Source: Armatimonadota bacterium
GTDB lineage: Bacteria > Cloacimonadota > Cloacimonadia > Cloacimonadales > TCS61
Direction of reading: 5' to 3'
Length of the DNA stretch: 43,247 nt
NCBI GenBank assembly: GCA_013203665.1
Contig: JABMPU010000017.1
Coordinates: 1 to 43,247 of the forward strand
Part shown: positions 20,511-38,716 of the stretch, in pieces
How positions within the stretch are numbered: the stretch's first letter is position 1
Layout of the letters: every line of letters begins with the position of its first letter
Position numbers and translations under genes: made by a program
The notes under the pieces: generated by a model
Seen by the model: the letters and a program-made list of their open reading frames with translations, nothing else
Database searches by the model: none
Told to the model about the DNA's origin: nothing

Positions 20511-23500
20511 ATGAGAATTATTATTTTTGTTTTATGTTTGGTTTTCGTTTTACCCATATTTGCAACAATTATAAATATCCCGGCAGACCAGCCGACAATA
20601 CAAAATGGAATTTATATTGCTGTAGAAGAAGATACAGTCTTGGTCCAACCTGGTACTTACATTGAAAACATTAATTTCAACGGAAAAAATATTATTGTTG
20701 CTTCTGTCTTTTTAACAACACAAGATACTAGCTATATCTCACAAACAATTATAGACGGGAATCAAGAAGATTGTGTTGTTAAATTTGAAAATGACGAAGA
20801 TTCGACAGCAGTTTTATGCGGTTTCACAATCCAAAATGGTTTAGGTGAAGAGTTAAATCAAGAAATAGGAGGTGGGATTAACTGCAATAATTCTCATCCC
20901 AAGATTTTATTTAACAGGATAATTAATAATGTCGGTGATCCTGGCGGAGGGATAGGTTGTTATCAATCTAATGCTGTTATTATTGGAAATCTCATAAGTA
21001 ATAATCTCGCATACAGTTCTTGGATGACAAATCGCGGTGGAGGTATTTCATGTATCTCATCCAATCCGATTATAAGAAATAATATAATTTCCAACAATTC
21101 ATTAAATTGGGGAAATGGGGGAGGAATTTTTTGTTCAAACTCCAATCCTCTAATAGAGGATTGTACAATTACAGGAAATGAAAATGACAGCTATCTTGCC
21201 GGTGCTGGAGTTTACTGTATTAATTCATCACCGATTATAAAAAATGTTTCCATCAATAATAATTCAGGCGAATTAGGAGGTGGTATATATTTTCATAACT
21301 CAGATACTATTTTAGAGAATGTAACTATCTCAAATAACTTTGGATTTCAAGGGGGAGGAATATATATTGAAGAAAATTCCAATCCTATGTTTGATGTTAA
21401 TAATCGATGTAATATTTATGGGAACCGTTCAGTTTATAACTTAGGAGTCGATTTGTATGTTAATAGTAATTTGATTACAAATGTTACTGTTGATATGTTT
21501 TCTGTACTATATCCTAATAATTATTATTTTTACTCAGAAGGAATAGTGAATTTTGATATTCAACATTGTTATACTGTTCAAATTGAAGATGATGTTTTTG
21601 TGTCTTCTCAAGGAAATAACAATAACAGCGGATTATCATGGAATGATCCGTTCAAAACACTAACATATGCTATTAGCAGAATTAGAGCTGACAGTCTGCA
21701 TCACTATTCGATATATCTGGCAGATGATACTTTTAGCAGCTCATCAAATGATGAGCAATTTCCAATATTCGAACTGAGTTACCTTGATATTGTAGGATCG
21801 GGTATTGAAACAACCGTTTTAGATGGAGAAAATGAACATACTATTCTGCAGTTTATTGATGTTACAAACTCTAACATCAGCAATTGTACGATTACAAACG
21901 GATATGCACACAATGGTAGTGGAGCAAAATTAGCAAGTTCAGAAGTGAATTTTGAGAATGTTAAATTTGCAAATAATAATTCCTATTCTAGGGGGGGGGA
22001 TATATGCAATTAGTTCAAATTCTTCAATCAATAATTCAATAATAGAATATAATACAGCTAATTATGGCGGTGGTATATATTTTTCTAATGGAAATCTTGA
22101 AATTTACAACACAAGTATTTATGAAAACTTCTCAGAAAAAGGAGCTGGATTATTATGCAATAATTCTAATATTGAATTAGAAGATGTTTATATCTGTAAT
22201 AATTCGGCATCTGATAGTGGCGGTGCAATATATTTGCAAAACTGTAACTCAAATTTTAATAATGTTTCGATTAATAATAATTCATCAAATCAATTTGGTG
22301 GAGGAATTTATTGTGTTGAATCTATTATTAATTTTGAAAATGAAAACAGATGCAGTATCTATGATAATGAAATTGACTTCAGAGGTTATGGAAAAGATAT
22401 CTTTGCTGTAGAATGTGAGTCAATGGATGTGATCTTAGACACATTCACAGTAACTACTCCAACTGACTATTTCGCATCTCCAATAAGTATATTCAATTTT
22501 GATATTCTAAATAGTACACAAGGAGCTTTGGTAAATTCAGACCTCTTTGTTTCGTTAATAGGAGATGACACAAACAGCGGAACTTCTGTAGAGGATCCAT
22601 TACAAACAATAAATTGTGCCCTGTCAAAAATCTATGCTGATAGCCTAAATCAAAATACCATACACTTATCATCAGGAATATTCAGCTACGAGAATACAGG
22701 TGAAATTTTCCCAATTGAATGGAGTGATTTTGTTAACTTAGAAGGTAGTGAAGAAGGTACTTCAGTTTTGCATGGAAATGAACAAGAAGGTGTTTTAGTA
22801 TTTAATGGTGTTAGCAACTCTGTGATTAACAATATTTCAATATCAAATAGTTATCCTGAATATGCTGTAGGAATATCTATGAATTATTCCAGCCCTGTTA
22901 TTTGCAATATCACTGTAACCGGTATTTCGCGTTATGGTATTTCGTGTCAGAATTCTTCCAATCCTATCTTATACAATGTTTCTATAGATGGTAATTTATA
23001 TGGATTTGGTTGCTCGTATTCTTCCAATCCAATCATAATAAATTCTTTAATTTCAAATAATAGTAGTATAGCATTTTATAGTGGATACGATTCCAATCCA
23101 ACTTTTATCAATACTACTATAGTCAATAATATTCTTCCTTCTTATATTCGTGAATCTAGCGCAAATTTGTTTAATTGTATTTTGTCTAACGAACACATTT
23201 ATGAGATTGATGTATTTCAAAACAGCTCTGTAACAATAGCATATTCGAACATTCAAGGTGGCATAGATGCAGTACATGCATGGGTAAATAGTATTGTATA
23301 TTGGGAAGAAGGCAATATTGATGAAGATCCGTTATTCGTTGGAGCCGGAGAGCATCCATTTGCTTTATCAGGATTATCTCCATGTATTGATACAGGGACT
23401 CCTGATACAACAGGTTTAAATCTCCCTCCGTGGGACATCATCAGCAACGAACGAATATGGGATGGTAACGAAGACGGAATTACAGTTATTGATATGGGCT

Positions 23501-23841
23501 GTTATGAATTCGGAGCTCCACCTTATGTTGATTTAGATGATAATGTAATTGTTCAGCTTCCTAAAGTCCTATTACGTCAAAACTACCCCAACCCATTCAA
23601 TCCTTCAACCACAATATCCTTCTTACTTCAAAATAATAGTAATGTGGAATTAACAATCTACAACATCAAAGGACAAAAAGTGAAACAGCTTGTCAGTGAT
23701 CTAAGAACAGCAGGTCAGCATTCGGTTATCTGGAACGGAAAAGATGATTCTGGTAAACCAGTTTCTTCCGGAGTTTATTTCTATAAATTGAATGTGAACA
23801 ATAACATTGAAGCCGTAAAGAAATGTTTATTATTGAAATAG
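20511..23841 (+). CDS. Giant beta-helix surface protein with T9SS-type C-terminal domain, split by a 9-G tract
   Basis: Two overlapping frames (20511-22013 and 21952-23841) make one protein of about 1110 aa. Frame one has a signal peptide (MRIIIFVLCLVFVLPIFAT), the Pfam-like NIPADQPTIQNGIYIAVEEDT start, and many right-handed parallel beta-helix turns of the form 'I.NN...GGGIY..NS.P.I'. The repeats continue seamlessly in frame two. It ends in a FlgD-like sorting domain: LLRQNYPNPFNPSTTISF, LTIYNIKGQKVK, SSGVYFYKL. The switch falls at nine consecutive G (21991-21999), where the repeat consensus expects RGG(G)IYAIS. With 8 or 11 G the frame would be restored; with 9, translation stops 14-17 bp later at TAG (22012). 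It is likely a secreted adhesin or polysaccharide-binding protein. Frame state may reflect phase variation or a sequencing error. Confidence 0.82.
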
Positions 23842-26474: not shown

Positions 26475-26500
26475 AAACCTCTCGTTTGAGAGGTTTTTTT
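26475..26500 (+). terminator. Rho-independent terminator after groS-trxA
   Basis: A perfect 9-bp stem, AAACCTCTC / GAGAGGTTT (26475-26483 and 26488-26496), with GTTT loop, continues into a run of seven T. It lies 28 bp after the thioredoxin stop and ends the groS-trxA unit. Confidence 0.93.
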
Positions 26501-26503
26501 CAC

Positions 26504-26533
26504 TTTCGGACAAACTGTTCATTTTCGAACAAA
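26504..26533 (+). promoter_or_regulatory. Candidate enhancer (UAS) for a sigma-54 activator
   Basis: Two direct copies of TTCGRACAAA (TTCGGACAAA, TTCGAACAAA) overlap two imperfect dyads, GGACA-AAC-TGTTC and GTTC-ATTTTC-GAAC. They lie about 55-85 bp upstream of the GG-N10-GC promoter. The downstream sigma-54 regulator (35360-36721) is the natural candidate to bind here. This is inference. Confidence 0.45.
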
Positions 26534-26587
26534 TACAAACACATCACAAACACAGCTAATTCTTTTGAAAATAAGAAGATAACCTTT

Positions 26588-26603
26588 TGGTATAATAAAT
26601 GCA
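26588..26603 (+). promoter_or_regulatory. Candidate sigma-54 (-24/-12) promoter of the export operon
   Basis: TGGTATAATAAATGCA fits the sigma-54 consensus TGGYAYR-N4-YTGCW: GG at 26589-26590, ten bases, GC at 26601-26602. It is 33 bp before the adaptor gene start, so transcription would begin near 26614. An enhancer-like repeat lies upstream, and the locus encodes its own sigma-54 activator. Confidence 0.65.
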
Positions 26604-26635
26604 TTTTTATAAGAAAAAATTATTGAAGGTTTGAC

Positions 26636-27880
26636 ATGGATAAAGATTTATCAAGCGATTATATTAGAAAACGAAAAATAAAAAAAATTATAAGATATCT
26701 AATTGTTTTTGCCTTTTTTATAATACTCTTTCTTTCCTTCAGGGCTATAATAAATCCTAGTATAAAACGTTCAAGAATACGAACTGCTTTTGCGGAAATT
26801 GGCTCTATTGAAGGCTCGATAACAGCATCCGGAATTGTAGTTCCCGAATTTGAACAGGTTATCACAAGCCCTTTTACTTCAACAATTGACAGTGTTTTTC
26901 ACAAAGCCGGAGACAAAATTGAATTCGGTGAACCAATCTTAAAACTGAACAATGAATTCACAATGATTGCTTATAATAAACTTCAAGATGAATATGAAAT
27001 GAAGATTAACAAAAAGAACCAATTAAAATTAAATTTGGAAAGACTGTTGATTGATTTGAGAAGTGAATATGAAATCATGGGCTTAAGAATCGAATCATTG
27101 GAAGCAAAAGTCAAAGCTCAAGAACATATCTATGAATTTGGTGGTGGTGCAAAAGTAAATCTGGACCAAGCTATTTTACATCTTAAAATAGCAAAACTCG
27201 AGCAGCAACAGATGGGATTGAAAATAGAGAACCATGAGAAATCTCTCCAAGCTGACCTGAAGGAGCTGGATTTAAGCATAAAAATTCATGAGAATAATAT
27301 CTTTGAATTAGAAAAAAGACTGGAACTTGCAAAAGCCAAATCCGTTCGTAATGGTGTAATAACCTGGGTTAAAGACAACATCGGCGAAAATGTAAATCAA
27401 GGTGAAATCATTGCTCGAATTGCTGATCTGGACAAATTTAAAATTGAATCTAAAATTTCTGATATTCACGCAGCTAAACTGATCGTGGGAAATCCAATCA
27501 AAGCACGTGTAAATGATATTGATCTCTCAGGAAAAATATCCAGTATCGAACCTACAATCATTAATGGAATTATCACATTCTTCGTAGAATTAGAAGATAA
27601 AACCAATGAGATGCTTCGTTCCAATCTACGGGTGGATGTGTTTGTAATAACATCTTCCAAAGATAATGTCGTGAGGGTTAAGAACGGACCGTTCATAAAT
27701 GGCTCGGGCAAACAGGATATTTTTGTGATTCAAGGTAATAAAGCAATAAGAAGAACAGTAAATATCGGAGCAACAAACTTTGATTATGCAGAGATTGAAA
27801 ATGGAGTAAAAGAAGGTGAAGAGGTTATTATTTCGGATATGGAAGATTATATTCATTATAAAGAATTGAAAATAAAATGA
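26636..27880 (+). CDS. HlyD/MacA-type periplasmic adaptor subunit
   Basis: A 414-aa membrane fusion protein. The N terminus is basic with one transmembrane helix (residues 20-40), then the lipoyl half-motif IEGSITASGIVVPEFEQVITSPFTSTI and FHKAGDKIEFGEPILKLNNE. A long alpha-hairpin coiled coil follows (about 100-235, rich in Lys, Glu and Leu). Then come the second lipoyl half (VITWVKDNIGENVNQGEIIARIAD) and beta-barrel/proximal domains ending in IGATNFDYAEIENGVKEGEEVIISD. Such adaptors join inner-membrane transporters to an outer-membrane channel. It is the first gene behind the sigma-54-type promoter and heads the MacAB-like operon. No TolC-like channel gene is in the locus. Confidence 0.9.
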   Translation: MDKDLSSDYIRKRKIKKIIRYLIVFAFFIILFLSFRAIINPSIKRSRIRTAFAEIGSIEGSITASGIVVPEFEQVITSPFTSTIDSVFHKAGDKIEFGEPILKLNNEFTMIAYNKLQDEYEMKINKKNQLKLNLERLLIDLRSEYEIMGLRIESLEAKVKAQEHIYEFGGGAKVNLDQAILHLKIAKLEQQQMGLKIENHEKSLQADLKELDLSIKIHENNIFELEKRLELAKAKSVRNGVITWVKDNIGENVNQGEIIARIADLDKFKIESKISDIHAAKLIVGNPIKARVNDIDLSGKISSIEPTIINGIITFFVELEDKTNEMLRSNLRVDVFVITSSKDNVVRVKNGPFINGSGKQDIFVIQGNKAIRRTVNIGATNFDYAEIENGVKEGEEVIISDMEDYIHYKELKIK

Positions 27881-27922: not shown

Positions 27923-28810
27923 ATGAGAGATAAACTTATTGTATTGATCATAATTGGACTTATCATGCTTTCAACAAACTTACATTCTCAAAATAGTCTG
28001 GAGAAAGCAAAAGAACTTATGAAAAATAATGAAAATGAACAAGCTGTTCAGATGCTGGAAGAATTAGTAAAGGAAGATGAAAATAATGTTGAATACTATA
28101 AATTACTCGCTACGACTTATTTGAAACTATCACAAAATCCTGAAAACGGAATGATGAAGGCTATGAAGTATTTTAAGAAGTGTAAGAAATCTTTTCTTAG
28201 AACTATTGAATTAGATCCGGACGATATTGAATCTAGAGTATTTTTGGTGGAAAGTTACTACTACCCACCCAAGATTGCAGGCGGTAATAAGAAAAAAGCA
28301 TTGGAACAACTGGAAGAAATTAAGATCAGGGATCCTCAGAAGGGAATGAAAATTTCAATTGAATTTCTTATGTTCGATGAAGATTACGAGCAGGCGATAC
28401 AGAAGTGTAATGAATATATAAACCGATATCCCGGAGATTTAAAGATATATCATTATTTGGGAATGACCTTTCAGCAGAAAGAGGATTTTCAGAAAGCATT
28501 TGAAGCATTTGAAACAGTAATTGCTGCAGATTCCACAGCTTTAAACTCCTTATATCAAATTGGCAGAACTGCAATTTTTTCCGAAGAAAATCTGGAGCGT
28601 GGTGTAGAATGTATGAAGCTGTATCTGCAAAACGATCCTGCTGAAGAAAGTCCTTCTTTGGATGCTGCCCACTGGCGGCTGGGAATGATTTATGAAAAAC
28701 AGGGGGAAATGAAACTTGCAAAAGCAGAATATGAAGAAGCAATCAAATTGAATCCCAAAGATAAAGATTATAAAAAGGCATTAAAGAAGGTTTTAAAGAA
28801 ATTAAAATAG
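27923..28810 (+). CDS. Exported TPR-repeat protein
   Basis: A 295-aa protein with an N-terminal signal peptide or anchor (IVLIIIGLIMLSTNLHSQ) followed by tetratricopeptide repeats. Repeat units are clear at AKELMKNNENEQAVQMLEELVKEDENNVEYYKLLATTYL, YIN-RYPGDLKIYHYLGMTFQQKEDFQKAFEAFETVIAADSTALNSLYQIGRTAIF and a final RLGMIYEKQGEMKLAKAEYEEAIKLNPKDKDYKKAL. It probably acts in the periplasm as a protein-interaction scaffold for the export complex, since it lies between adaptor and ATPase genes (9-bp spacing to the latter). A specific partner cannot be named. Confidence 0.82.
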   Translation: MRDKLIVLIIIGLIMLSTNLHSQNSLEKAKELMKNNENEQAVQMLEELVKEDENNVEYYKLLATTYLKLSQNPENGMMKAMKYFKKCKKSFLRTIELDPDDIESRVFLVESYYYPPKIAGGNKKKALEQLEEIKIRDPQKGMKISIEFLMFDEDYEQAIQKCNEYINRYPGDLKIYHYLGMTFQQKEDFQKAFEAFETVIAADSTALNSLYQIGRTAIFSEENLERGVECMKLYLQNDPAEESPSLDAAHWRLGMIYEKQGEMKLAKAEYEEAIKLNPKDKDYKKALKKVLKKLK

Positions 28811-28819
28811 GAGTAACAA

Positions 28820-29485
28820 ATGATTAAATTAGAAAAAATCGACAAGGTTTATAGAACGGAGACGATTGAAACAACAGCCCTGAAGCATGTTCACCTTCAC
28901 GTTGAAAAAGGAGAATTCCTGGCTGTGATGGGACCATCCGGTTGCGGCAAAAGTACCCTTCTAAATATTATGGGGCTTTTGGACAAACCAACCAAAGGTG
29001 AAGTTCTAATTGATGAACTGGAAGTTAATACTTTCGGAGATAGAAAACTTGCAAAACTCAGAAATCGGAAGATCGGTTTTGTGTTTCAGAGTTTCCATCT
29101 TATCAATGATCTGTCTGTGGTTGATAATGTGGAAATTCCTCTTTTATATAGAAGAATGTCAGGAAAAGAGCGTCGCAAAAAAGCTTTGGAAGTTTTGGAA
29201 AAAGTGGGGCTGAGTGCCAGAACAAAACATTTTCCGCGTCAGCTTTCAGGTGGACAGTGTCAACGGGTAGCAGTTGCCAGAGCTATTGTAGGTAATCCGG
29301 AAATAATCCTAGCAGACGAACCGACAGGAAACCTGGATAGTGTGATGGGTGCAGAAATTATGGATATTCTGATGCGACTGAATAAAGAAGAAAATACTAC
29401 AATCGTTATGGTTACACACGATGAACATCTGGCTGAGCAAGCCCATAGAATTATTCGGTTGTTTGATGGAAGTCAGGTGATGTAA
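28820..29485 (+). CDS. MacB/LolD-type ABC transporter ATPase
   Basis: A 221-aa ABC ATPase. Walker A is GPSGCGKSTLLN near residue 38, the Q-loop region is FVFQSFHLINDLSVVDNVE, the signature is LSGGQCQRVAVARAIV, Walker B is IILADEPTGNLD, and the switch His is in VMVTHDEHLAEQA. The phrase EFLAVMGPSGCGKSTLLNIMGLLDKPTKGEV puts it in the MacB/LolD/FtsE group that energises mechanotransmission permeases of the FtsX fold. It is the only ATPase for four permeases downstream. Confidence 0.95.
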   Translation: MIKLEKIDKVYRTETIETTALKHVHLHVEKGEFLAVMGPSGCGKSTLLNIMGLLDKPTKGEVLIDELEVNTFGDRKLAKLRNRKIGFVFQSFHLINDLSVVDNVEIPLLYRRMSGKERRKKALEVLEKVGLSARTKHFPRQLSGGQCQRVAVARAIVGNPEIILADEPTGNLDSVMGAEIMDILMRLNKEENTTIVMVTHDEHLAEQAHRIIRLFDGSQVM

Positions 29486-29525: not shown

Positions 29526-29627
29526 ATGAGTAAGAAAATTGAGAAATTTGAAGATTTGATAGTTTGGAAAGAATCTATGCGACTTGCTGTTGATATTTAC
29601 AAATCTCCGCAGGAGATTCTATGTTAA
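29526..29627 (+). pseudogene. 5' remnant of a four-helix-bundle (S23-type) protein gene
   Basis: ATG 29526 opens a 33-codon frame beginning MSKKIEKFEDLIVWKESMRL and continuing AVDIYK. This is the characteristic N terminus of the four-helix-bundle proteins (TIGR02436/23S rRNA-intervening-sequence type), normally about 115-125 aa. After Lys26 the similarity ends abruptly and the frame stops at 29625-29627, inside the start of the permease gene; its last bases supply the CAGGAGA ribosome binding site of that gene. It is thus a truncated remnant left at a recombination joint between ATPase and permease genes. Confidence 0.7.
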
Positions 29628-30853
29628 AAAATTATATTAAATTAGCATTCAAAGTCTTATTAAGGCACAAATTTTTTACCTTTGTCAGCTTATTCGGAAT
29701 CAGCTTCACATTGATGATCCTACTTATTACTGCAGCATTCTTCGATCATATTCTGGGACCTGCATATCCCGAATCGAACCAGAACAGATGCTTATACATT
29801 CTGGATATGGAACTTTCCGGTCCTGAAATAACAAAACGTGGTTCCATCAGTTACTACTTCCTTAATAAATACGTGAAATCACTTCAAACGCCGGAAGCAG
29901 TTTCCATTACCAGTTTCTTCCAGAAAACAGTGACCTATAATAAAGGAAAGAAATACAAAATAATAATGAAATACTGTGATTCGGAATTCTGGAAAATTAT
30001 GGATTTCGAATTTGTAGAAGGTAAGCCCTTCAGTAAAAGTGATGTAAATAATATTAACCAGGTTGCTGTGATCAATGAAGCTACCAGGGAAAAATATTTT
30101 GGCTCTGAATCTGCAATAGGCAAATATATCGAAGCTGACTGGAAAAAGTACAAAGTAATTGGAGTCGTGAAAGATGTTCCCATCATCAGGATTTTGGCTT
30201 ACGGCGATGTTTGGGTTCCTATCACAAATACAAAAGAAGATATCGTGTCCTATACTATGGATGGTGATTACCAGGCAATAATCTTGGCAAAATCCAGAAA
30301 AGATTTTCCTGCAATTAAAGCTGAATTTCAAAAGAACCTTCAACTTGTTGAATTTCGTGATGAACAATATGATTCTATAAAAGGGGGAGCCGATACAATA
30401 TTAGAATCAACATCTCGGGAAATGTTTGGTTTTGATGAGACAAGAGTTCACTTAATTTTTGCTATTTTGATAGGTTTAATGGTGCTTTTTATGATACTGC
30501 CGGTATTAAATCTGGTGAATATCAATATTAATCGGATTATGGAGCGTTATTCCGAAATTGGCATTAGAAAGTCGTTTGGAGCTTCCACCAAAACTCTGGT
30601 TGGTCAGTTTATTGTAGAAAATGTTATTCTTACTCTCATTGGTGGAATAATAGGTTTTATTTTAACAGGAATCGTTTTGGCTGTTTTCAATAGTACAGAG
30701 ATCATACCTTATTCAAATTTCACTTTAAATTTCAGAATATTTGTTTATGCTATTCTTATCACACTATTCTTTGGGTTATTTTCCGGTGTTTACCCAGCCT
30801 GGCGGATGTCACGGCTTAAACCTGTAGATGCACTTCAGGGAGGTCAGAAATGA
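29621..30853 (+). CDS. FtsX/MacB-type ABC permease, copy A1
   Basis: A 410-aa permease of the MacB_PCD plus FtsX layout. It has a first transmembrane helix at residues 18-42 (FFTFVSLFGISFTLMILLITAAFF) and a large periplasmic domain to about 275 with the MacB-type motif VAVINEATREKYFGSESAIGKYIEADWKKYKVIGVVKDVP. Three helices follow (about 280-302, 328-352, 370-393) with the FtsX segment YSEIGIRKSFGAS between them. The C terminus AWRMSRLKPVDALQGG is family-typical. It is clearly paralogous to 32743-33990. It overlaps the next permease by 4 bp, consistent with a heteromeric A-B pair. Confidence 0.92.
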   Translation: MLKNYIKLAFKVLLRHKFFTFVSLFGISFTLMILLITAAFFDHILGPAYPESNQNRCLYILDMELSGPEITKRGSISYYFLNKYVKSLQTPEAVSITSFFQKTVTYNKGKKYKIIMKYCDSEFWKIMDFEFVEGKPFSKSDVNNINQVAVINEATREKYFGSESAIGKYIEADWKKYKVIGVVKDVPIIRILAYGDVWVPITNTKEDIVSYTMDGDYQAIILAKSRKDFPAIKAEFQKNLQLVEFRDEQYDSIKGGADTILESTSREMFGFDETRVHLIFAILIGLMVLFMILPVLNLVNININRIMERYSEIGIRKSFGASTKTLVGQFIVENVILTLIGGIIGFILTGIVLAVFNSTEIIPYSNFTLNFRIFVYAILITLFFGLFSGVYPAWRMSRLKPVDALQGGQK

Positions 30854-32028
30854 TAGCAACCAAACATCTTTTTCGATTAATGTGGAATCGACGTAAAATG
30901 AATTTTTTGATGATTGCAGAAATTTTTATCTCATTTCTTGTTATTTTCGTTTTAGTTCAAAGTCTGGTGAAATTTGCTTTCTATTATAATGAACCGCTGG
31001 GTTTCAACTATAAAGATGTATGGAACCTGGAGATCAACATAAACAATCTGAATGATGAAGATACCAGGAGCGAGATGGAACTGATCAAAAATGAACTGCG
31101 AGCCTATCCGGAAATCATTAACTTCTCTGAAGCTTACAATATCCCATATACTTCAAGTGATATCCAAACAACACAGAAGTTGGAAAATAAGACCCTTTCA
31201 GCCCATATGCTGCTGGGCGATGATAATTATGCTGATGTTCTGGAGATAGAAATGATCGAAGGCAGATGGTTTGATGAGCAGGATAATGCTTCCAATTATG
31301 AGCCTGTGATCATAAATAAGAAACTGAAAGAAGCCTTTTTTGGAAATGAGAAAGCAGTTGGACAATTCCTGGAGCAAAAGGAAAGCAAACGTTTGGTAAT
31401 CGGAGTTATCGATCAGATCAAGAAAAGAGGCGAATTGAATGACTTCGGAAAAATTATCTTTAAGCGGATCAATCCAAACGATCCAGAGAGCTGGATAGGA
31501 CGCAATATCCTGATGAAAATAAAACCGGGAACCGGAATCGATTTCGAAGAAAAACTATTGCGGCATCTCACAAATGTATCCAAAAATTTTACGATAGAGA
31601 TTCGTCCCATGGAAAATATGCGAAAACGATCCTTTGCGAAGTATTCCAGTGTTGCTTATATTTTTGGATTCATCAGTTTGTTTCTGGTAATCAATGTGTC
31701 ACTTGGCTTGTTTGGAGTGCTATGGTATAATATCAATTTTCGCAAATCAGAAATTGGTATTCGCAGATCATTTGGTTCCACCTCCAAGAATATTTATTCT
31801 CAGATAATTGGAGAGACCCTGGTGCTCTCAACCTTCAGTTTGATTTTGGGAAGTTTCATAGTTTTACAACTGAAGATATTGATCACAAGCTGGCTGCGAA
31901 CAGATATCTTCTATGCTTCTTATTTTATCTCGGTTTTTGTGATCTACATTGTAACTGCAGTTTGTGCATTTTATCCCAGTAAATTAGCTGCTGAAATTGA
32001 ACCAGTTGAGGCTTTGCACGATGAATAA
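30850..32028 (+). CDS. FtsX/MacB-type ABC permease, copy B1
   Basis: A 392-aa permease with the same four-helix plan: one N-terminal helix near residues 18-40, a periplasmic domain (with VIINKKLKEAFFGNEKAVGQFLE and RLVIGVIDQIKKRGE), then three C-terminal helices and FRKSEIGIRRSFGSTSK between them. The end YPSKLAAEIEPVEALHDE is typical. The start MIATKHLFRLMWNRRKMNF resembles MIKHFFKLIWNKKRTNF of 33987-35186, so this is the B-type paralogue. It is coupled to A1 (ATGA overlap) and to the periplasmic protein after it (8-bp overlap). Confidence 0.92.
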   Translation: MIATKHLFRLMWNRRKMNFLMIAEIFISFLVIFVLVQSLVKFAFYYNEPLGFNYKDVWNLEININNLNDEDTRSEMELIKNELRAYPEIINFSEAYNIPYTSSDIQTTQKLENKTLSAHMLLGDDNYADVLEIEMIEGRWFDEQDNASNYEPVIINKKLKEAFFGNEKAVGQFLEQKESKRLVIGVIDQIKKRGELNDFGKIIFKRINPNDPESWIGRNILMKIKPGTGIDFEEKLLRHLTNVSKNFTIEIRPMENMRKRSFAKYSSVAYIFGFISLFLVINVSLGLFGVLWYNINFRKSEIGIRRSFGSTSKNIYSQIIGETLVLSTFSLILGSFIVLQLKILITSWLRTDIFYASYFISVFVIYIVTAVCAFYPSKLAAEIEPVEALHDE

Positions 32029-32728
32029 GAAAATATTCTTTATGCTGTTATTTTCCCCTGCCTTTCTGCTGATGCTGAACGCAGATAATCCTGCAGATAT
32101 TTTGTGGCAAAAAGCAGAAAAGATAGCCTTTGAAAACTGGAATTTGGTTCCCGGAAGAATTCATAAAGAAAAAAAAGTGTATAAGAAAAATGGTAAGCTC
32201 AAGTCCACAAAGGAAGTAATATTAGAAAGTAATTATGAAGATAATAAAATCTCATTGCATTTTGTGCAGGCAAGAACAGATAAGAAAGAATTAACTGAAG
32301 AAAATTCTTATGTTCTAGCTGAAATGAATAAGGATTATTATCCCCAGAACAATTCAATTTTTCATAATGCAGAAAAATTTAAGGTCAAATATTATAGAAC
32401 AAATGAAACTTTAATAATTCGTGGCAGGAAATGTGCGATCTATGATATTGAATTTCAACAAGTAGAAGATGGAAAAATCGTAGAATATTTGGGAAAAGTA
32501 TTCCTGGACGCAAAAAATGGTACTCCCTATAGATTGGAGAAAACTGCCAAGAAACTTCCTGCTATGATGAAATCATTTCTGGAAACAACAGAATACGAGA
32601 TAGATAATAATGGTAATTGGATAACGAAATCTGAATTGACTGCCACAAAAGCAAAACTGCTTCTTCTCACCATAACAATGCACTTAAAATATACATATTC
32701 CGATTATTGGAAATTTCCTGGAAAATAA
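32021..32728 (+). CDS. Exported LolA/outer-membrane-lipoprotein-sorting-like protein
   Basis: A 235-aa protein with a signal peptide (MNKKIFFMLLFSPAFLLMLN, cleavage about AD at 22). The mature part is beta-rich, ending LGKVFLDAKNGTPYRLEKT...LETTEYEIDNNGNWITKSELTATKAKLLLLTITMHLKYTYSDY. That 'cofactor-free, single-domain, beta-sheet' pattern resembles the LolA/LolB-like or outer-membrane lipoprotein-sorting family, though no motif is decisive. ATG 32021 lies in the end of permease B1, so it is coupled to it. Sitting between two permease pairs, it is probably a periplasmic partner of the system. A longer frame from 31997 would lack a signal peptide at its start. Confidence 0.62.
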   Translation: MNKKIFFMLLFSPAFLLMLNADNPADILWQKAEKIAFENWNLVPGRIHKEKKVYKKNGKLKSTKEVILESNYEDNKISLHFVQARTDKKELTEENSYVLAEMNKDYYPQNNSIFHNAEKFKVKYYRTNETLIIRGRKCAIYDIEFQQVEDGKIVEYLGKVFLDAKNGTPYRLEKTAKKLPAMMKSFLETTEYEIDNNGNWITKSELTATKAKLLLLTITMHLKYTYSDYWKFPGK

Positions 32729-32742
32729 TAAGGAGAAACACT

Positions 32743-33990
32743 ATGTTTAAAAACTATATCAAAATTGCTTTAAAAGTAATGATGCGAAACAAGCTGTTCA
32801 CCTTTATCAGTTTGTTCGGGATCAGCTTCACATTGCTCATAATAGTCTTATTTACTTCGGCACTGGATCATACATTCGGACCGCATTATCCCGAGAAAAA
32901 ACTGGGTAGAACCCTGTCGGTTACTATGGGAATGTTAAGATCAAAAAAAGGAGGAACAACTTCAGGACCTCTTTTCAGTCCCTATTTCCTGAATAAATAC
33001 GTGAAGTCATTGAAAACACCTGAAAAGATTTCTCTCTCTTCATTTCACAATCCCATTGTTGTTTATAAAGATAAAAAGAAACTGAAACTGGGGATCAAAT
33101 ACACTGACAATGAATTTTGGGATATCCTGGATTTCAATTTCTCGGAAGGTAAAGCTTTCAGTAGAGATGATGTGGATAATATAGCAAATGTTGCTGTAAT
33201 TAACGAAAAAACTAAAGATCAGTATTTTGACGGTGAACCTGCGGTTGGAAAGTATATCGAAGCAGATGGAAAGACCTACCGCGTTATAGGTGTTGTGGAA
33301 AATGTGTCTATCCTGCGGATTATGCCCTATTCCGATATCTGGGTACCAATGGGACATACCAAGGAAGACCTTAACAAAATTACCATAACTGGCAATTTTC
33401 CAGGCTGGTTTGCCATGGTTTTAGCTCACAGAAAGAAAGATTTTCCAAAGATCAAAGCTGAGTTTCAGAAGCATCTGGAGAAAATTGAGTTCCCGGAAGG
33501 TAGATTTGAATGGATCCTCACCAATACATCGAGTTATGGTGAAGCTTTTGCCAGGCAGATATTTCGCAGAGAGGAGGGAAACCTTGCACCTTTCATGACC
33601 ATCCTCTTCGTTCTGATGACCCTCTTTATGCTGCTGCCCACCATAAACCTGGTTAATATCAATGTAAGCAGGATCATCGAGCGCTCATCTGAAATCGGCA
33701 TTAGGAAATCATTTGGAGCATCTTCCCTGACACTGGTAGGGCAATTTATTATTGAAAATATAATAATTACTGTGATCGGAGGTCTTATCAGTCTGGTGAT
33801 GGCAGCAATAATCCTGGGGATTATCAATCAAAGCGGTATAATTCCGGATACACATCTGGGATTAAATTTCAGGATCTTTTTCTACAGTATGATATTCGCT
33901 GTTTTCTTTGGACTTCTTTCAGGAGTTTATCCTGCCTTTAAGATGTCTAAATTGCAGCCTGCAGAAGCTATTCATGGAGGTCAAAGATGA
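32743..33990 (+). CDS. FtsX/MacB-type ABC permease, copy A2
   Basis: A 415-aa paralogue of permease A1. The starts align as MFKNYIKIALKVMMRNKLFT against MLKNYIKLAFKVLLRHKFFT, and shared blocks include YFLNKYVKSLKTPE, VAVINEKTKDQYFDGEPAVGKYIEADGKTYRVIGVVENV, SSEIGIRKSFGASS and GVYPAFKMSKLQPAEAIHGG. The topology is one plus three helices around a large periplasmic domain. ATG 32743 was chosen for its AGGAG site (32731-32735); an upstream TTG start at 32707 would overlap the previous gene. It overlaps permease B2 by 4 bp. Confidence 0.92.
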   Translation: MFKNYIKIALKVMMRNKLFTFISLFGISFTLLIIVLFTSALDHTFGPHYPEKKLGRTLSVTMGMLRSKKGGTTSGPLFSPYFLNKYVKSLKTPEKISLSSFHNPIVVYKDKKKLKLGIKYTDNEFWDILDFNFSEGKAFSRDDVDNIANVAVINEKTKDQYFDGEPAVGKYIEADGKTYRVIGVVENVSILRIMPYSDIWVPMGHTKEDLNKITITGNFPGWFAMVLAHRKKDFPKIKAEFQKHLEKIEFPEGRFEWILTNTSSYGEAFARQIFRREEGNLAPFMTILFVLMTLFMLLPTINLVNINVSRIIERSSEIGIRKSFGASSLTLVGQFIIENIIITVIGGLISLVMAAIILGIINQSGIIPDTHLGLNFRIFFYSMIFAVFFGLLSGVYPAFKMSKLQPAEAIHGGQR

Positions 33991-35186
33991 TAAAGCATTT
34001 CTTTAAACTTATCTGGAATAAGAAACGTACAAATTTTATGACATCACTCGGTATCTTTGTTTCATTTATAGTTTTGTTCCTGGTATTGGTCGCTGTTATC
34101 TATAATATTAGTAACTATCTTAAACCGCTGGGTTTTTCCTATAAAGACGTCTGGTATATTACCATGGATTGGAAAGACAGCTCTCAAGAAGAGATAAAAG
34201 AAACATTGCTCCAGTTTGAAAATGCTTTTAGAAGTTTCCCGGAAATTGAGAATTTTGCTTATTCGGAATCATTTATATTTACACCTGCTGTCATGAATAT
34301 GACAAATTATGAATACAATGGTAGAGAGATAAGATGTAATATCAGGTATGCGAGTGATGATTTTACGAAGGTAATGGGAGTGGAAATTCTGGAAGGACGC
34401 TGGTTCAATGAATCTGACAATGCTTCCAGTAAAAATCCGCTGGTCATAAATAAATATGCAAAAGAAGAGATTTTTGGAAATGATATAGCATTAGGGAAAG
34501 TTCTACATAGAGATGAAACAGAATACATAATAATCGGAGTAATTGATGAATTCCGCAATGCAGGACAGTTTTCAGGTTCCAGCAGCATATCCTTCAGGAG
34601 AATTTCTTTAAATTTGGAACATGAACTATCCCGTTTTGGCAGTGAAGCAATGGGAAGCAGAATCCTTCTTAAAATGAAGCCAGGAACACCTTTTCAATTC
34701 GAAGAAACCCTTACCAAAAGTCTGTCCAATATAGCCAAGGACTGGCAGATAAAAATGAATACATTGGAATTGTTGAAAAAATCAGCTACTCTCCAAACGC
34801 TAATCTTTCCTGTGATTCTAATTGTGGTCTGCGGATTTCTGGTTATAAATGTAGCACTCGGGCTTTTTGGAGTTATCTGGTATAATACAAATCGACGGAA
34901 ATCTGAAATTGGACTGCGTAGAGCTTTGGGTTCTTCAGCTATGAAAATCTATAAGCAGATTATAGGGGAAGCTTTGGTTCTCTCCACTTTTGCCATGATC
35001 TTCGGCAGCTTCTTTGCGCTGCAGTTTCCTCTTCTGGGTATCTTTAGTTTCATTGATACAAAGATATACATTTTTGCCTATGTTTCAGCGATTATACTGA
35101 TCTATGTTATTACCGCATTATGCGCATTATATCCCAGTAAAATTGCATCCAACCTGGAACCAGCAGAAGCACTGCATTATGAATGA
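33987..35186 (+). CDS. FtsX/MacB-type ABC permease, copy B2
   Basis: A 399-aa paralogue of B1: near-identical plan, with KPLGFSYKDVWYITMDW (EPLGFNYKDVWNLEINI in B1), LEGRWFNESDNASSKNPLVINKYAKEEIFG, RRKSEIGLRRALGSS and YPSKIASNLEPAEALHYE. It has one N-terminal and three C-terminal transmembrane helices. It closes the transporter operon; the hairpin at 35222-35254 follows. No second ATPase accompanies the A2/B2 pair, so the ATPase at 28820 probably serves both pairs. Confidence 0.92.
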   Translation: MIKHFFKLIWNKKRTNFMTSLGIFVSFIVLFLVLVAVIYNISNYLKPLGFSYKDVWYITMDWKDSSQEEIKETLLQFENAFRSFPEIENFAYSESFIFTPAVMNMTNYEYNGREIRCNIRYASDDFTKVMGVEILEGRWFNESDNASSKNPLVINKYAKEEIFGNDIALGKVLHRDETEYIIIGVIDEFRNAGQFSGSSSISFRRISLNLEHELSRFGSEAMGSRILLKMKPGTPFQFEETLTKSLSNIAKDWQIKMNTLELLKKSATLQTLIFPVILIVVCGFLVINVALGLFGVIWYNTNRRKSEIGLRRALGSSAMKIYKQIIGEALVLSTFAMIFGSFFALQFPLLGIFSFIDTKIYIFAYVSAIILIYVITALCALYPSKIASNLEPAEALHYE

Positions 35187-35221: not shown

Positions 35222-35254
35222 AATCCCCTTTTATACCCCCTAATAAAGGGGGAT
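35222..35254. terminator. Stem-loop after the permease operon
   Basis: AATCCCCTTTTATA pairs with TAATAAAGGGGGATT around a C-rich loop, 36 bp after the last permease stop. It is followed by TTGTTT but no clean T run, so it may be a terminator, or another dispersed palindrome placed between the transporter and its regulators. Confidence 0.5.
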
Positions 35255-35359
35255 TTTGTTTGAACTTCCCTTTTAAAAGTGAGATTAAAAGTTGTTTAAA
35301 ATCTTCGAACACTTGACAAACCTTTGGGCTTTTTTAAATTAAAATTGCGGAGGATAAAT

Positions 35360-36721
35360 GTGCATAAGATCTTAATCATTGACGATGATTTTGCAGTACA
35401 AACATCTTTAAGCCTTCTCTTGAACCAGAATGATTATGAGACTGTTACTGCTTCCAATCCTGATGAAGCTCTGGAAGTGATAAAAGAAGTAAAACTGGAT
35501 CTGATAATTCTGGATATGAATTTCACAATGGAAACCACTGGTGAAGAAGGGCTTGCACTCTTAAAAGAAATCAAAAACCTATTACCAGCAATTCCTGTTA
35601 TTCTCATCACAGCCTGGGGTTCGATCTCGCTTGCTGTGGAAGGCATGAAAGCAGGAGCTGTAGATTTCATTACAAAACCCTGGAGCAATGAATTTTTCCT
35701 CCAATCTGTTCGAACTGCCTTGTGCCTTTCTAAGGATACTGAACAAAAACTTACCCGTAAACAGATTGACTCAAAATATAATTTCGAAAGTACCATTGGG
35801 AAAGATCCTGTCTTTGTAGCAGCACTGGAAACAGTTGGTCGTGTAAGCAAAACAGATGCTTCAGTATTGATACTGGGCGAAAGCGGAACAGGCAAAGAAC
35901 TTATCGCTGAAGCAATCCACAAAAATAGCTCACGTAAAAATCAACCTTTCGTAAAAGTAAATCTTGGTGGGATATCTTCTTCTTTGTTCGAAAGCGAAAT
36001 GTTCGGTCATATAAAAGGTTCATTCACCGACGCCAGATACGATCGCATCGGACGTTTTGAGATGGCGAACAAGGGTACGATATTTCTGGATGAGATCGGT
36101 GAACTGGATATCAATATGCAGGTGAAATTATTGAGAGTGCTTCAGGACAGGACTTTTGAAGTACTGGGATCCAGTAAACCCAGAACTGTAAACGTGAGGG
36201 TAATCTGTGCAACCAATAGAGACCTGGAGGAAATGGTAAATAATAACGAATTCAGAGAAGACCTTTATTACCGTATAAACCTGATATCTCTCAAACTTCC
36301 GGCATTGCGGGAACGAGCAGAGGATATTCCGCTTTTGGTAAATTATTTTATTAAAACGCTTCAAAACAAATACAAACGACCGGGACTACAAATTAATAAA
36401 CAGGCAATGAACTGGCTAAAAGGACTTTCCTGGTCTGGAAATATACGAGAATTAAAAAACCTGGTAGAAAGAGCAGTGGTGATCTCCAATAAAAACAACC
36501 TGGAATTAGACAATTTTACAAAGGAATTTATTATCGGACCTCAAAAAATAACTTCCAAAAAGCTCCCGGATGTTGGCTCTATGACACTTGAAGAAATAGA
36601 AAAAGCAATGATCTTAAAAGCTTTGAAAGAAAATAAAAATCTCAGCCGTGTTGCCAGGGCACTGGGAATCAGTAGAGCAGCACTTTATCGAAGAATGGAG
36701 AAATTCGGTATCTCTGTATGA
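35360..36721 (+). CDS. Sigma-54-dependent response regulator (NtrC/ZraR type)
   Basis: A 453-aa activator. The receiver domain has D8-D10 and phospho-acceptor D52 in LIILDMNF. The AAA+ domain has Walker A GESGTGKELIAEAIH, the sigma-54 contact loop GSFTDA (a variant of GAFTGA) and Walker B GTIFLDEIGEL. The C-terminal Fis-type helix-turn-helix is LSRVARALGISRAALYRRMEKFGI. Start GTG 35360 was chosen since the CGGAGG site is correctly spaced and the receiver begins there; the frame can be extended to 35324 only by unlikely residues. It overlaps the kinase gene by 4 bp. The sigma-54-type promoter at 26588 is its most likely local target. Confidence 0.93.
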   Translation: MHKILIIDDDFAVQTSLSLLLNQNDYETVTASNPDEALEVIKEVKLDLIILDMNFTMETTGEEGLALLKEIKNLLPAIPVILITAWGSISLAVEGMKAGAVDFITKPWSNEFFLQSVRTALCLSKDTEQKLTRKQIDSKYNFESTIGKDPVFVAALETVGRVSKTDASVLILGESGTGKELIAEAIHKNSSRKNQPFVKVNLGGISSSLFESEMFGHIKGSFTDARYDRIGRFEMANKGTIFLDEIGELDINMQVKLLRVLQDRTFEVLGSSKPRTVNVRVICATNRDLEEMVNNNEFREDLYYRINLISLKLPALRERAEDIPLLVNYFIKTLQNKYKRPGLQINKQAMNWLKGLSWSGNIRELKNLVERAVVISNKNNLELDNFTKEFIIGPQKITSKKLPDVGSMTLEEIEKAMILKALKENKNLSRVARALGISRAALYRRMEKFGISV

Positions 36722-38013
36722 AATTGAAAATCAAATATATCCTCTTTGTTTCCTTTATTCACATAATTCTCATTTTATTATCTCTGCGCATGTTCAAGGA
36801 AAATATCTATTATTTTATAGCTGCTGAATTCTTTATTATCTGCACAATTATCATAGCAATAATTTTATATAGACAGTTCATCCAACCTATAAACACTATC
36901 TCATCCGGGATTGAATCTCTGGAAGATAAAGATTTCAGCATGAAGTTCGTGAAGGTCGGTCACTTAGAGATGGATCAGCTAATTGGGGTTTACAACAGGA
37001 TGATAGACCAGCTTCGGGAAGAACGGATCAAACAGAGGGAACAGCATTTTTTCCTGCAACACCTGATAGAATCTTCACCATCAGGTATTATTATTCTAAA
37101 TTTTGATGAAATAATTACCCAGATCAATCCTGCAGCAGGATCCTTTCTGGGATTGAGTTCGGAAAAAATTATTGGGAAAACTTTCGATAAATTGCCGGGC
37201 AAATTGCCTATGGAATTGAATAAACTTCTGTCCGGAAACTCAGAAATTATTCCCATAAGCGGGATGAAAACATTCAAATGCCAAAAAGCAAGTTTTGTTG
37301 ATCGCGGTTTTAATCATCATTTTATTCTTATCGAGGAACTGACAGACGAACTCTTGAAGACCGAACGAAAAGCTTATGAGAAAGTTATACGAATGATGTC
37401 CCATGAATTGAATAATTCGCTGGGTGCGGTTAACTCTATACTGAATACTTGTTTGAATTTTAAAGACCAACTGCAAAAGAAAGATAAGAAAAGTTATGAA
37501 GAAGCACTCAATGTGGCAATTGAACGGAATACTCACCTGAACAGGTTTATGGAAAATTTCGCCAATGTTGTTCGCATCCCTTTACCCAAAAAGATAGAAA
37601 CCGACCTGCATGAACTTTTAAAAAACGTGGGCAAATTCATATTTACAGATATTGAAAAAAGAAATATCAAACTGAAATGGGAACTTGATTCGAAGCCATT
37701 GATGGTTAAGCTGGATAAGCAGCAGATGGAACAGGTGCTGGTAAATATTTTCAAGAATGCAATGGAAGCTATCGAAAAAAATGGTGAAATTACAATTATC
37801 ACAACTCCAAACAGGCAACTAATAATCCGGGATAATGGCAAAGGCATTCCTGAAGATATTCAGCAAAAATTATTCACTCCCTTTTTCAGTACAAAGAAGA
37901 ACGGACAGGGAATAGGGCTTACTGTAACGCGTGAGATATTATTGAATCACGGATTTAAATTTTCATTGGAAACAAATGAGAAAGAAGAGACCGAGTTTGT
38001 AGTGGAGTTTTAG
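36718..38013 (+). CDS. NtrY-like sensor histidine kinase (HAMP-PAS-HisKA-HATPase)
   Basis: A 431-aa kinase. Two transmembrane helices (about residues 5-23 and 29-52) have almost no periplasmic loop, so it probably senses within the membrane or cytoplasm. HAMP-like and PAS segments follow (LIESSPSGIIILNFDEIITQINPAAGSFLGLS). The phospho-acceptor is His229 in RMMSHELNNSLGAV. ATPase boxes are N (QVLVNIFKNAMEA), G1 (IRDNGKGIP) and G2 (TKKNGQGIGLTV). It is the partner of the regulator before it (4-bp overlap). Its final 41 codons have a diverged second copy at 38793-38915, beyond a TA module. Confidence 0.94.
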   Translation: MKLKIKYILFVSFIHIILILLSLRMFKENIYYFIAAEFFIICTIIIAIILYRQFIQPINTISSGIESLEDKDFSMKFVKVGHLEMDQLIGVYNRMIDQLREERIKQREQHFFLQHLIESSPSGIIILNFDEIITQINPAAGSFLGLSSEKIIGKTFDKLPGKLPMELNKLLSGNSEIIPISGMKTFKCQKASFVDRGFNHHFILIEELTDELLKTERKAYEKVIRMMSHELNNSLGAVNSILNTCLNFKDQLQKKDKKSYEEALNVAIERNTHLNRFMENFANVVRIPLPKKIETDLHELLKNVGKFIFTDIEKRNIKLKWELDSKPLMVKLDKQQMEQVLVNIFKNAMEAIEKNGEITIITTPNRQLIIRDNGKGIPEDIQQKLFTPFFSTKKNGQGIGLTVTREILLNHGFKFSLETNEKEETEFVVEF

Positions 38014-38110: not shown

Positions 38111-38452
38111 TTACATCTTCATCGCTAAATCAAATAAACGATAACCGTGTAAAATTCTTAAAATATACACCACATTTTCAGAAATTCTGTAAATTATCCG
38201 ATAATTTTTATAGACAAGTTGACGATAATCAATCTTAAGAATTTCATATTCCGGGATCAAAGGATTTCGCTTGGGAAAACCCTCTAAAGAAAAAATTGCT
38301 CTTTCTATTTTATCGATAAATTCAGTTGCTATTTTAACGTTATCTAATGCAATGTATTGCCAGATTTCTTCGATATCATTTTGTGCAGATTTTGTGATAT
38401 TAACTTTATATATTTTTTTCACTTCTGAATCTCTGAAAAAATGTTTTTGCAT
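38111..38452 (-). CDS. RelE/ParE-superfamily toxin of TA module 1
   Basis: A 113-aa (or 103-aa) toxin. The core reads YKVNITKSAQNDIEEIWQYIALDNVKIATEFIDKIERAIFSLEGFPKRNPLIPEYEILKIDYRQLVYKNYRIIYRISENVVYILRILHGYRLF, the usual ParE/RelE pattern with a final R-IIYRI...V-ILRI-HG block. Members cleave mRNA at the ribosome or inhibit gyrase; which one cannot be told. The frame opens at 38452 inside the antitoxin, but GTG 38422 gives a more typical N terminus (KKIYKVNI) with a smaller overlap. It is encoded after the Phd-type antitoxin, the standard order. Confidence 0.88.
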   Translation of the reverse strand: MQKHFFRDSEVKKIYKVNITKSAQNDIEEIWQYIALDNVKIATEFIDKIERAIFSLEGFPKRNPLIPEYEILKIDYRQLVYKNYRIIYRISENVVYILRILHGYRLFDLAMKM

Positions 38453-38684
38453 CTTCTGTTCTATCCGATCTGATATCCATTTCAGCTTTAGCTAATTCTT
38501 GCATAATATAAAATGCTCCTGTCATTTTTTCATATTCGGAAGCGTCGAGAAGAACAGCTTCAGCTTTTCCATTTTTTGTGAGAACTACCGGTCTTTTTGT
38601 GTTATGAACCTGTTGTAAAACACCATTTGTATGTTTCTTTAGTTCTGTAATAGATATAATATCTTGAGTTATTTTAAATTGCAT
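38406..38684 (-). CDS. Phd/YefM-family antitoxin of TA module 1
   Basis: A 92-aa antitoxin with the N-terminal Phd/YefM DNA-binding fold: ISITELKKHTNGVLQQVHNTKRPVVLTKNGKAEAVLLDASEYEKM. The C-terminal part, rich in charged helical residues, would wrap around the toxin. ATG 38684 was chosen: GGAGG lies just upstream, and a longer start at 38696 (TTG) would use that site as coding sequence. Such antitoxins repress their own operon by binding palindromes, and one is present at 38717-38733. Confidence 0.9.
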   Translation of the reverse strand: MQFKITQDIISITELKKHTNGVLQQVHNTKRPVVLTKNGKAEAVLLDASEYEKMTGAFYIMQELAKAEMDIRSDRTEDAKTFFQRFRSEKNI

Positions 38685-38716
38685 TTCATCCTCCAATTTA
38701 ATTCTAATTTAATACT

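Follow-up and report, generated by a model that had tools for sequence, protein, structure and literature searches.

A predicted sigma-54 promoter and compound operator precede a MacB/FtsX-type exporter operon in Cloacimonadota, with a neighbouring response regulator as the likely activator

Positions 26497-26603 of the window (the whole 43,247-nucleotide stretch of Cloacimonadota DNA analysed here) very probably form a control region in which a sigma-54 promoter is combined with a compound operator, and the activator would most likely be the response regulator encoded at 35360-36721. Sequence comparison among relatives defines the promoter type, the operator, the fixed spacing between them and the linkage of both to a transporter, a regulator and a kinase. 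In the model that we propose, the kinase (36718-38013) would phosphorylate the regulator, and the phosphorylated form would bind the compound operator, i.e. the core dyad at 26516-26531 and an upstream GGACA half-site, ~80-105 bp upstream of the expected start. Binding would lead to activation: the -24/-12 promoter would stay silent until melted by an AAA+ activator, and the regulator is expected to oligomerise, contact sigma-54 with its AAA+ ring via a GSFTDA loop, and remodel the holoenzyme at 26588-26603. Regulator, operator and target promoter would thus form a single unit open to testing, in a phylum for which hardly any regulatory data exist.

Relatives such as Candidatus Tenebribacter burtonii place the genome in the Cloacimonadota. 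The exporter operon is preceded by a 140-bp intergenic region that lies 3' of groES-trxA and their Rho-independent terminator (26475-26496, 9-bp stem and T tail); the features described here are on the + strand unless stated otherwise. The operon encodes a HlyD/MacA-type periplasmic adaptor or membrane fusion protein (26636-27880; PF13437, PF16576), weakly similar to the darobactin exporter adaptor DarC, followed by a TPR protein with a signal peptide-like N-terminus (27923-28810; TPR families) that is present in close relatives and absent from loci outside the phylum. Next come an ABC ATPase of the MacB/LolD/DarD type (28820-29485), matching PF00005, the DarD and LolD profiles and the MJ0796, MacB and LolD structures, and four MacB_PCD/FtsX permeases. 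Permease 1 (29621-30853) matches the N half and permease 2 (30850-32028) the C half of ADOP permeases, while permease 3 (32743-33990, start set at an internal ATG) and permease 4 (33987-35186), assigned by family match, are paralogs of permeases 1 and 2, respectively. The remaining reading frame within the operon (32021-32728) encodes a secreted/periplasmic-like protein of ~235 aa that matches nothing in Pfam, NCBIfam or the PDB sequences. The adaptor, the MacB/LolD-type ATPase and the MacB_PCD and FtsX permeases are the components of a MacB/FtsX-type (type VII) ABC exporter. The initial annotation had placed an ABC operon beside a sigma-54 regulator and kinase, and this holds, with the type of exporter now given by family matches and the GTG start of the activator at 35360, ~8.7 kb downstream of the promoter. 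The four permeases (29621-35186) appear as two half-ADOP pairs, P1/P2 and P3/P4, that look duplicated; one pair only is found in the same-genus relative L161 and in L042. Elsewhere in the window, 20511-23841 codes for a large, repeat-rich protein that looks secreted and carries a sorting-like domain (PNPFNPSTTI) at its C-terminus; its reading frame is divided between two ORFs that overlap near 21952-22013, perhaps because of a frameshift. Beyond the kinase gene, on the - strand (38111-38696), lies a small ORF pair that by eye resembles a RelE/ParE-type toxin and a Phd/YefM-type antitoxin.

The response regulator (35360-36721, GTG start after GGAGGA) consists of a receiver, an AAA+ sigma-54 interaction domain and a Fis-type HTH, with PF00072, PF00158, PF02954 and PF25601 all above cut-offs; none of the AtoC, ZraR and NtrC models reaches its cut-off on this protein. 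The loop predicted to contact sigma-54 reads GSFTDA; 79 of the 85 relatives have GAFTDA. According to PMC4641369, activation survives some substitutions in GAFTGA, GAFTDA and GSFTGA among them; GSFTDA, a double variant of GAFTGA, is not listed in that work. The sigma-54 activator domain has 11 strong matches in the genome, and the recognition helix R-x-x-LYRR occurs in only two of these activators: the window regulator (SRAALYRRM) and a regulator on another contig, C17 (TRTSLYRRL). These two adjoin the only two sites in the genome at which the operator was found together with a -24/-12 element. The histidine kinase (36718-38013) has two predicted transmembrane helices separated by a very short loop, followed by HAMP, PAS, HisKA and HATPase domains. 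A terminator-like hairpin (35222-35255, 13-pair stem and T-rich tail) marks the boundary between the transporter operon and the regulator genes, and no -24/-12 site lies directly upstream of the latter, so that regulator and kinase are probably expressed separately from the exporter. A TTGACA-N16-TAAATT match is present at 35313-35340, upstream of the regulator gene, such matches being about as common as chance predicts.

The initial annotation had pointed out two TTCGRACAAA repeats, and copies do lie where it placed them (TTCGGACAAA at 26505-26514 and TTCGAACAAA at 26524-26533, 55-83 bp upstream of the TGG); they are, however, not direct repeats but half-sites of inverted dyads within one compound operator. 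Searched genome-wide for an enhancer motif, as the annotation had advised, the 10-mer is not enriched (23 sites vs 28 for the reversed control) and was dropped as a motif, and the full compound element GGACA-N3-TGTTC-N6-GAACA at 26508-26531 gives a single zero-mismatch site in the 3.4 Mb genome. Conservation covers the unit GRACA-N3-TGTYC-R-N4-YGRACR. On its right, TGTYC-N6-GRACA forms a dyad of 16 bp (TGTTC-N6-GAACA at 26516-26531 in the window) with the TGT-N10-ACA spacing known for NifA and FhlA sites, and is predicted to be the main activator site. The GRACA on its left is the surviving half of another, degenerate dyad, TTTTC-N6-GGACA (26497-26512), which would form the left dimer site; the GGACA half at 26508-26512 is strongly conserved in orthologs, and the - strand gives a one-mismatch match at 26497-26520.

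The searched pattern, GRACA-N3-TGTYC-R-N5-GRAC-R, has no reversed-control matches in any of the 99 relative genomes, and the full operator occurs in those genomes with the orthologous operon (in G027 with one base changed) and, apart from these, as a handful of isolated matches. Operator-like matches in distant members of the order (G045, G057, G068 and G070) have no recognisable orthologous operon around them. The site in G068, which comprises several half-sites, was rejected as an ortholog, the regulator match in the surrounding 24 kb being just 36% identical, and a further operator-like match, in G074, lies in a locus that is cut short. The operator in G026 is uninformative, because the contig ends ~360 bp past the site and the stretch read contains no -24/-12 element. 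In all nine Cloacimonadota orthologs the distance from the end of the operator to the TGG is 55 or 56 bp (56 bp in the window), and the dyad is kept in each. A dyad that lies upstream of the promoter, is conserved and is linked to an adjacent regulator is what a predicted activator site should look like, and the enhancer-like site anticipated by the annotation is borne out by its conservation in orthologs and outside loci. The spacing to the promoter is fixed within each lineage, which is not what looped enhancers usually show and points to a defined geometry.

The recognition helix of the C17 regulator resembles that of the window regulator, and the question of which of the two binds the operator has to be weighed. 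A further exporter operon, paralogous to that of the window, lies on contig C17 (L160, G000:C17, 955-15198), with a divergent sigma-54 regulator of the GAFTDA type and a kinase. Its operator, GAATA-AAA-TGTTC-GCAGGC-GGACA at C17:12351-12374, has one mismatch, and a -24/-12 site (TGGCACATTTATTGCA, C17:12258-12273) lies between the adaptor and the divergent regulator gene; related adaptor genes of the family are likewise preceded by the same type of dyad, in some cases doubled 22 bp apart, and by canonical -24/-12 sites. Another -24/-12-like site, TGGCACAGAAATTGCA, is seen where the ABC ATPase ORF begins (C17:6606-6621). With a near-copy operator and a similar regulator on C17, cross-regulation is possible, and the window promoter could be sigma-54-dependent while its operator is bound mainly by the C17 regulator, or shared with it, in a small cross-talking regulon of two exporter operons. 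Judged from these sequences we consider this unlikely, since the window-type operon and its own regulator remain adjacent across genomes, and the left half-site, set off by 3 bp, is characteristic of the window type. Our preferred reading thus keeps the window regulator as the activator. In several phyla the operator keeps company with transporter, regulator and kinase, which makes the adjacent regulator and kinase the likely controllers of the exporter operon, in agreement with the annotation's view that the transporter answers to the two-component pair; its further suggestions, an envelope-response role and induction of the transporter, are hypotheses. The description of the system as self-contained goes too far, given the paralog on C17 with its one-mismatch operator, -24/-12 site and own related regulator and kinase: the exporter system is locally wired, yet not isolated.

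The promoter itself, TGGTATAATAAATGCA at 26588-26603, contains the GG-N10-GC core of sigma-54 sites. The claim that it matches sigma-54 at all conserved positions is right for the GG and the GC and otherwise too strong, the site reading TGGTATA-N5-TGCA, not TGGCACG-N4-TTGCA. The same letters hold a perfect sigma-70 extended -10 element, TGG-TATAAT (TGGTATAAT, 26588-26596), which the initial annotation did not mention, and the lone sequence is ambiguous because it fits both. Comparison of nine orthologous upstream regions from Cloacimonadota (adaptors 42-100% identical) separates the two: TGG-N9-TGC is invariant in all nine, whereas TATAAT is present in the window alone. The closest relative reads TGGCATAAT at this position, and the other orthologs have TATAGA, CATTTG, TACACA, CACAAT, TACGGC, CACGAA or CATAGA in place of TATAAT. 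The -12 element sits 26-40 bp before the ATG in the nine orthologs; in the window, the predicted start is near 26613. An unbiased search of all 3-mer pairs, with spacer lengths from 0 to 14, in seven diverged regions upstream of the orthologs found only ACA-N3-TGT and TGG-N9-TGC common to all seven (two found vs 0.01 expected in shuffles), also at consistent positions. Genome-wide, TGGYAY-N6-TGCW is five-fold enriched (56 sites vs 11 in the reversed control), and the genome encodes an intact RpoN, the presence of which the annotation had left to be checked (486 aa ORF, PF04552 E=2.5e-47, RpoN-box-like SRRVIAKYRKAKR).

It is accordingly very improbable that 26588-26596 serves as a sigma-70 extended -10 promoter and that the -24/-12 match is accidental. 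The perfect TGnTATAAT of the window and TGGCATAAT in its closest relative speak for such a promoter, but TATAAT is lost in all other orthologs, a consensus scan lists no -35/-10 promoter at the site, and near-canonical sigma-54 promoters occupy the same position in outside phyla. The extended -10 is thereby discounted, on grounds of conservation, as the main promoter, although sigma-70 could additionally use the perfect TGGTATAAT in the window species. That the element instead belongs to the upstream groES-trxA unit, or is a chance sequence directly past the trxA terminator, has next to no credibility, as the element is conserved despite differing upstream DNA (the stretches read of L013, L016 and L017 contain no trxA) and stands in front of the adaptor gene in outside loci. 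The conserved -24/-12 element and the unconserved -10 support, at the level of sequence, the assignment of 26588-26603 as a sigma-54 promoter, as the annotation had read it.

The same arrangement extends beyond the Cloacimonadota. Relatives of the regulator with 56-65% identity adjoin the same adaptor-ABC-permease-kinase set in Bacteroidota, the set of regulator and exporter is also found in loci assigned to Neomarinimicrobiota, Zixibacteria and Acidobacteria, and the gene order adaptor-ABC-permeases-regulator-kinase is conserved in the outside loci. A weight matrix built from the nine Cloacimonadota sites only was used to scan the 330 bp that precede the adaptor gene at 67 outside loci, mostly from Bacteroidota. 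It exceeded the 99th percentile of control windows in 62 of the 67 (median score 19.8 vs -5.8); the loci are not mutually independent, and it is the transfer of the matrix across phyla that constitutes an independent prediction. In nearly all of the 62 matching loci a TGGYAY-N5-TTG element lies 51-54 or 65 bp from the operator, a locus from Acidobacteria (L118) having none at these distances; since the TTG of the -12 element entered the scoring of outside loci, information there comes solely from the spacing and from the base that follows TTG. The transfer of the matrix, together with the conserved cluster, indicates that the operator travels with the regulator. In some Bacteroidota the right dyad is a perfect palindrome, TGTCCGATATCGGACA. 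The unit is also present in cultivable Bacteroidota (Pedobacter, Mucilaginibacter, Hymenobacter and Pontibacter), which allows direct testing.

Some further features were seen in the Bacteroidota. In the -12 element of L041-L119, TTG is followed mostly by G or A (28 G, 11 A, 17 C, 6 T), and the textbook GC is not kept, as exemplified by TGGCAC-N5-TTGGCT in Hymenobacter. Across four Bacteroidota genomes, TGGCAC-N5-TTGR has 106 sites vs 69 for the reversed control, unevenly distributed and below the control in one genome, and the TTGC version is unenriched (32 vs 39). Eight Hymenobacter loci (L050, L057, L062, L076, L084, L086, L087 and L105) have two operator/-24/-12 sites each, one before the adaptor gene and the second ~3-5 kb further, near the ABC ATPase gene, which suggests two sigma-54 transcription units per cluster.

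Kinases with an intact N-terminus, in the window and its relatives, have two predicted N-terminal transmembrane helices joined by a loop of at most 12 residues, which leaves no room for a periplasmic ligand-binding domain. From hydropathy, the kinase probably takes its signal from within the membrane or from the transporter, or else perceives it with its cytoplasmic PAS domain. A bolder extension, which we regard as conceivable though doubtful, is that the MacB/FtsX-type exporter is itself the sensor: its activity or occupancy would be read in the membrane by the kinase without a periplasmic domain, and the operon encoding the exporter would then be turned on by a sigma-54 activator of its own acting at TGTYC-N6-GRACA, in a Bce-like flux-sensing circuit shared by Cloacimonadota, Bacteroidota, Neomarinimicrobiota and Zixibacteria. 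If this were true, the exporter-as-sensor circuit would be a widespread and so far unnamed sensing module.

Control of sigma-54 promoters by an adjacent response regulator is textbook knowledge, and NtrC-type (group I) regulators with local target operons are known from ZraSR, AtoSC and GlrR. The window system resembles these in its receiver-AAA+-Fis HTH architecture, its adjacent kinase and its dyad ~100 bp before a -24/-12 promoter, and differs from them in its target, a MacB/FtsX-type exporter, in the core TGTYC-N6-GRACA and in the GSFTDA/GAFTDA loop. The exporter shares an adaptor, a MacB/LolD-type ATPase and MacB_PCD/FtsX permeases with MacAB, the darobactin exporter DarBCDE and ADOP; unlike these, it has a separate ATPase and paired half-ADOP permeases, and it scores below the NCBIfam equivalog cut-offs. 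Literature searches, most subscription literature lying outside their reach, covered the operator sequence, the GAFTDA loop, sigma-54 in Cloacimonadota and sigma-54 combined with intramembrane sensing, and did not find the operator or the pairing of regulator and exporter.

A closer parallel in kinase design is BceRS-BceAB, where a two-helix kinase with almost no extracytoplasmic domain has an FtsX-type ABC transporter as its neighbour and may regulate it (PMC3023708). The window kinase likewise has two transmembrane helices and no extracytoplasmic sensor domain. The window regulator is a sigma-54 AAA+ activator as opposed to the OmpR-type regulator of that system, no OmpR-type regulator or BceB-type single permease (~10 transmembrane helices) being found in the locus, and the transporter is MacA/MacB-like, with an adaptor and MacB-type paired permeases. 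On the promoter side, sigma-54 promoters have recently been predicted before FtsX-like/COG0577 ABC permeases of the antimicrobial-peptide type in Bacteroidia, gamma-Proteobacteria and Opitutia, in passages of PMC12316311 (2025) whose authors call the link a first. Those passages name neither an activator nor an operator for the permeases and do not mention Cloacimonadota; the system described here has candidates for both, and would supply a likely activator for this newly noted, unexplained link between sigma-54 and FtsX-type ABC exporters.
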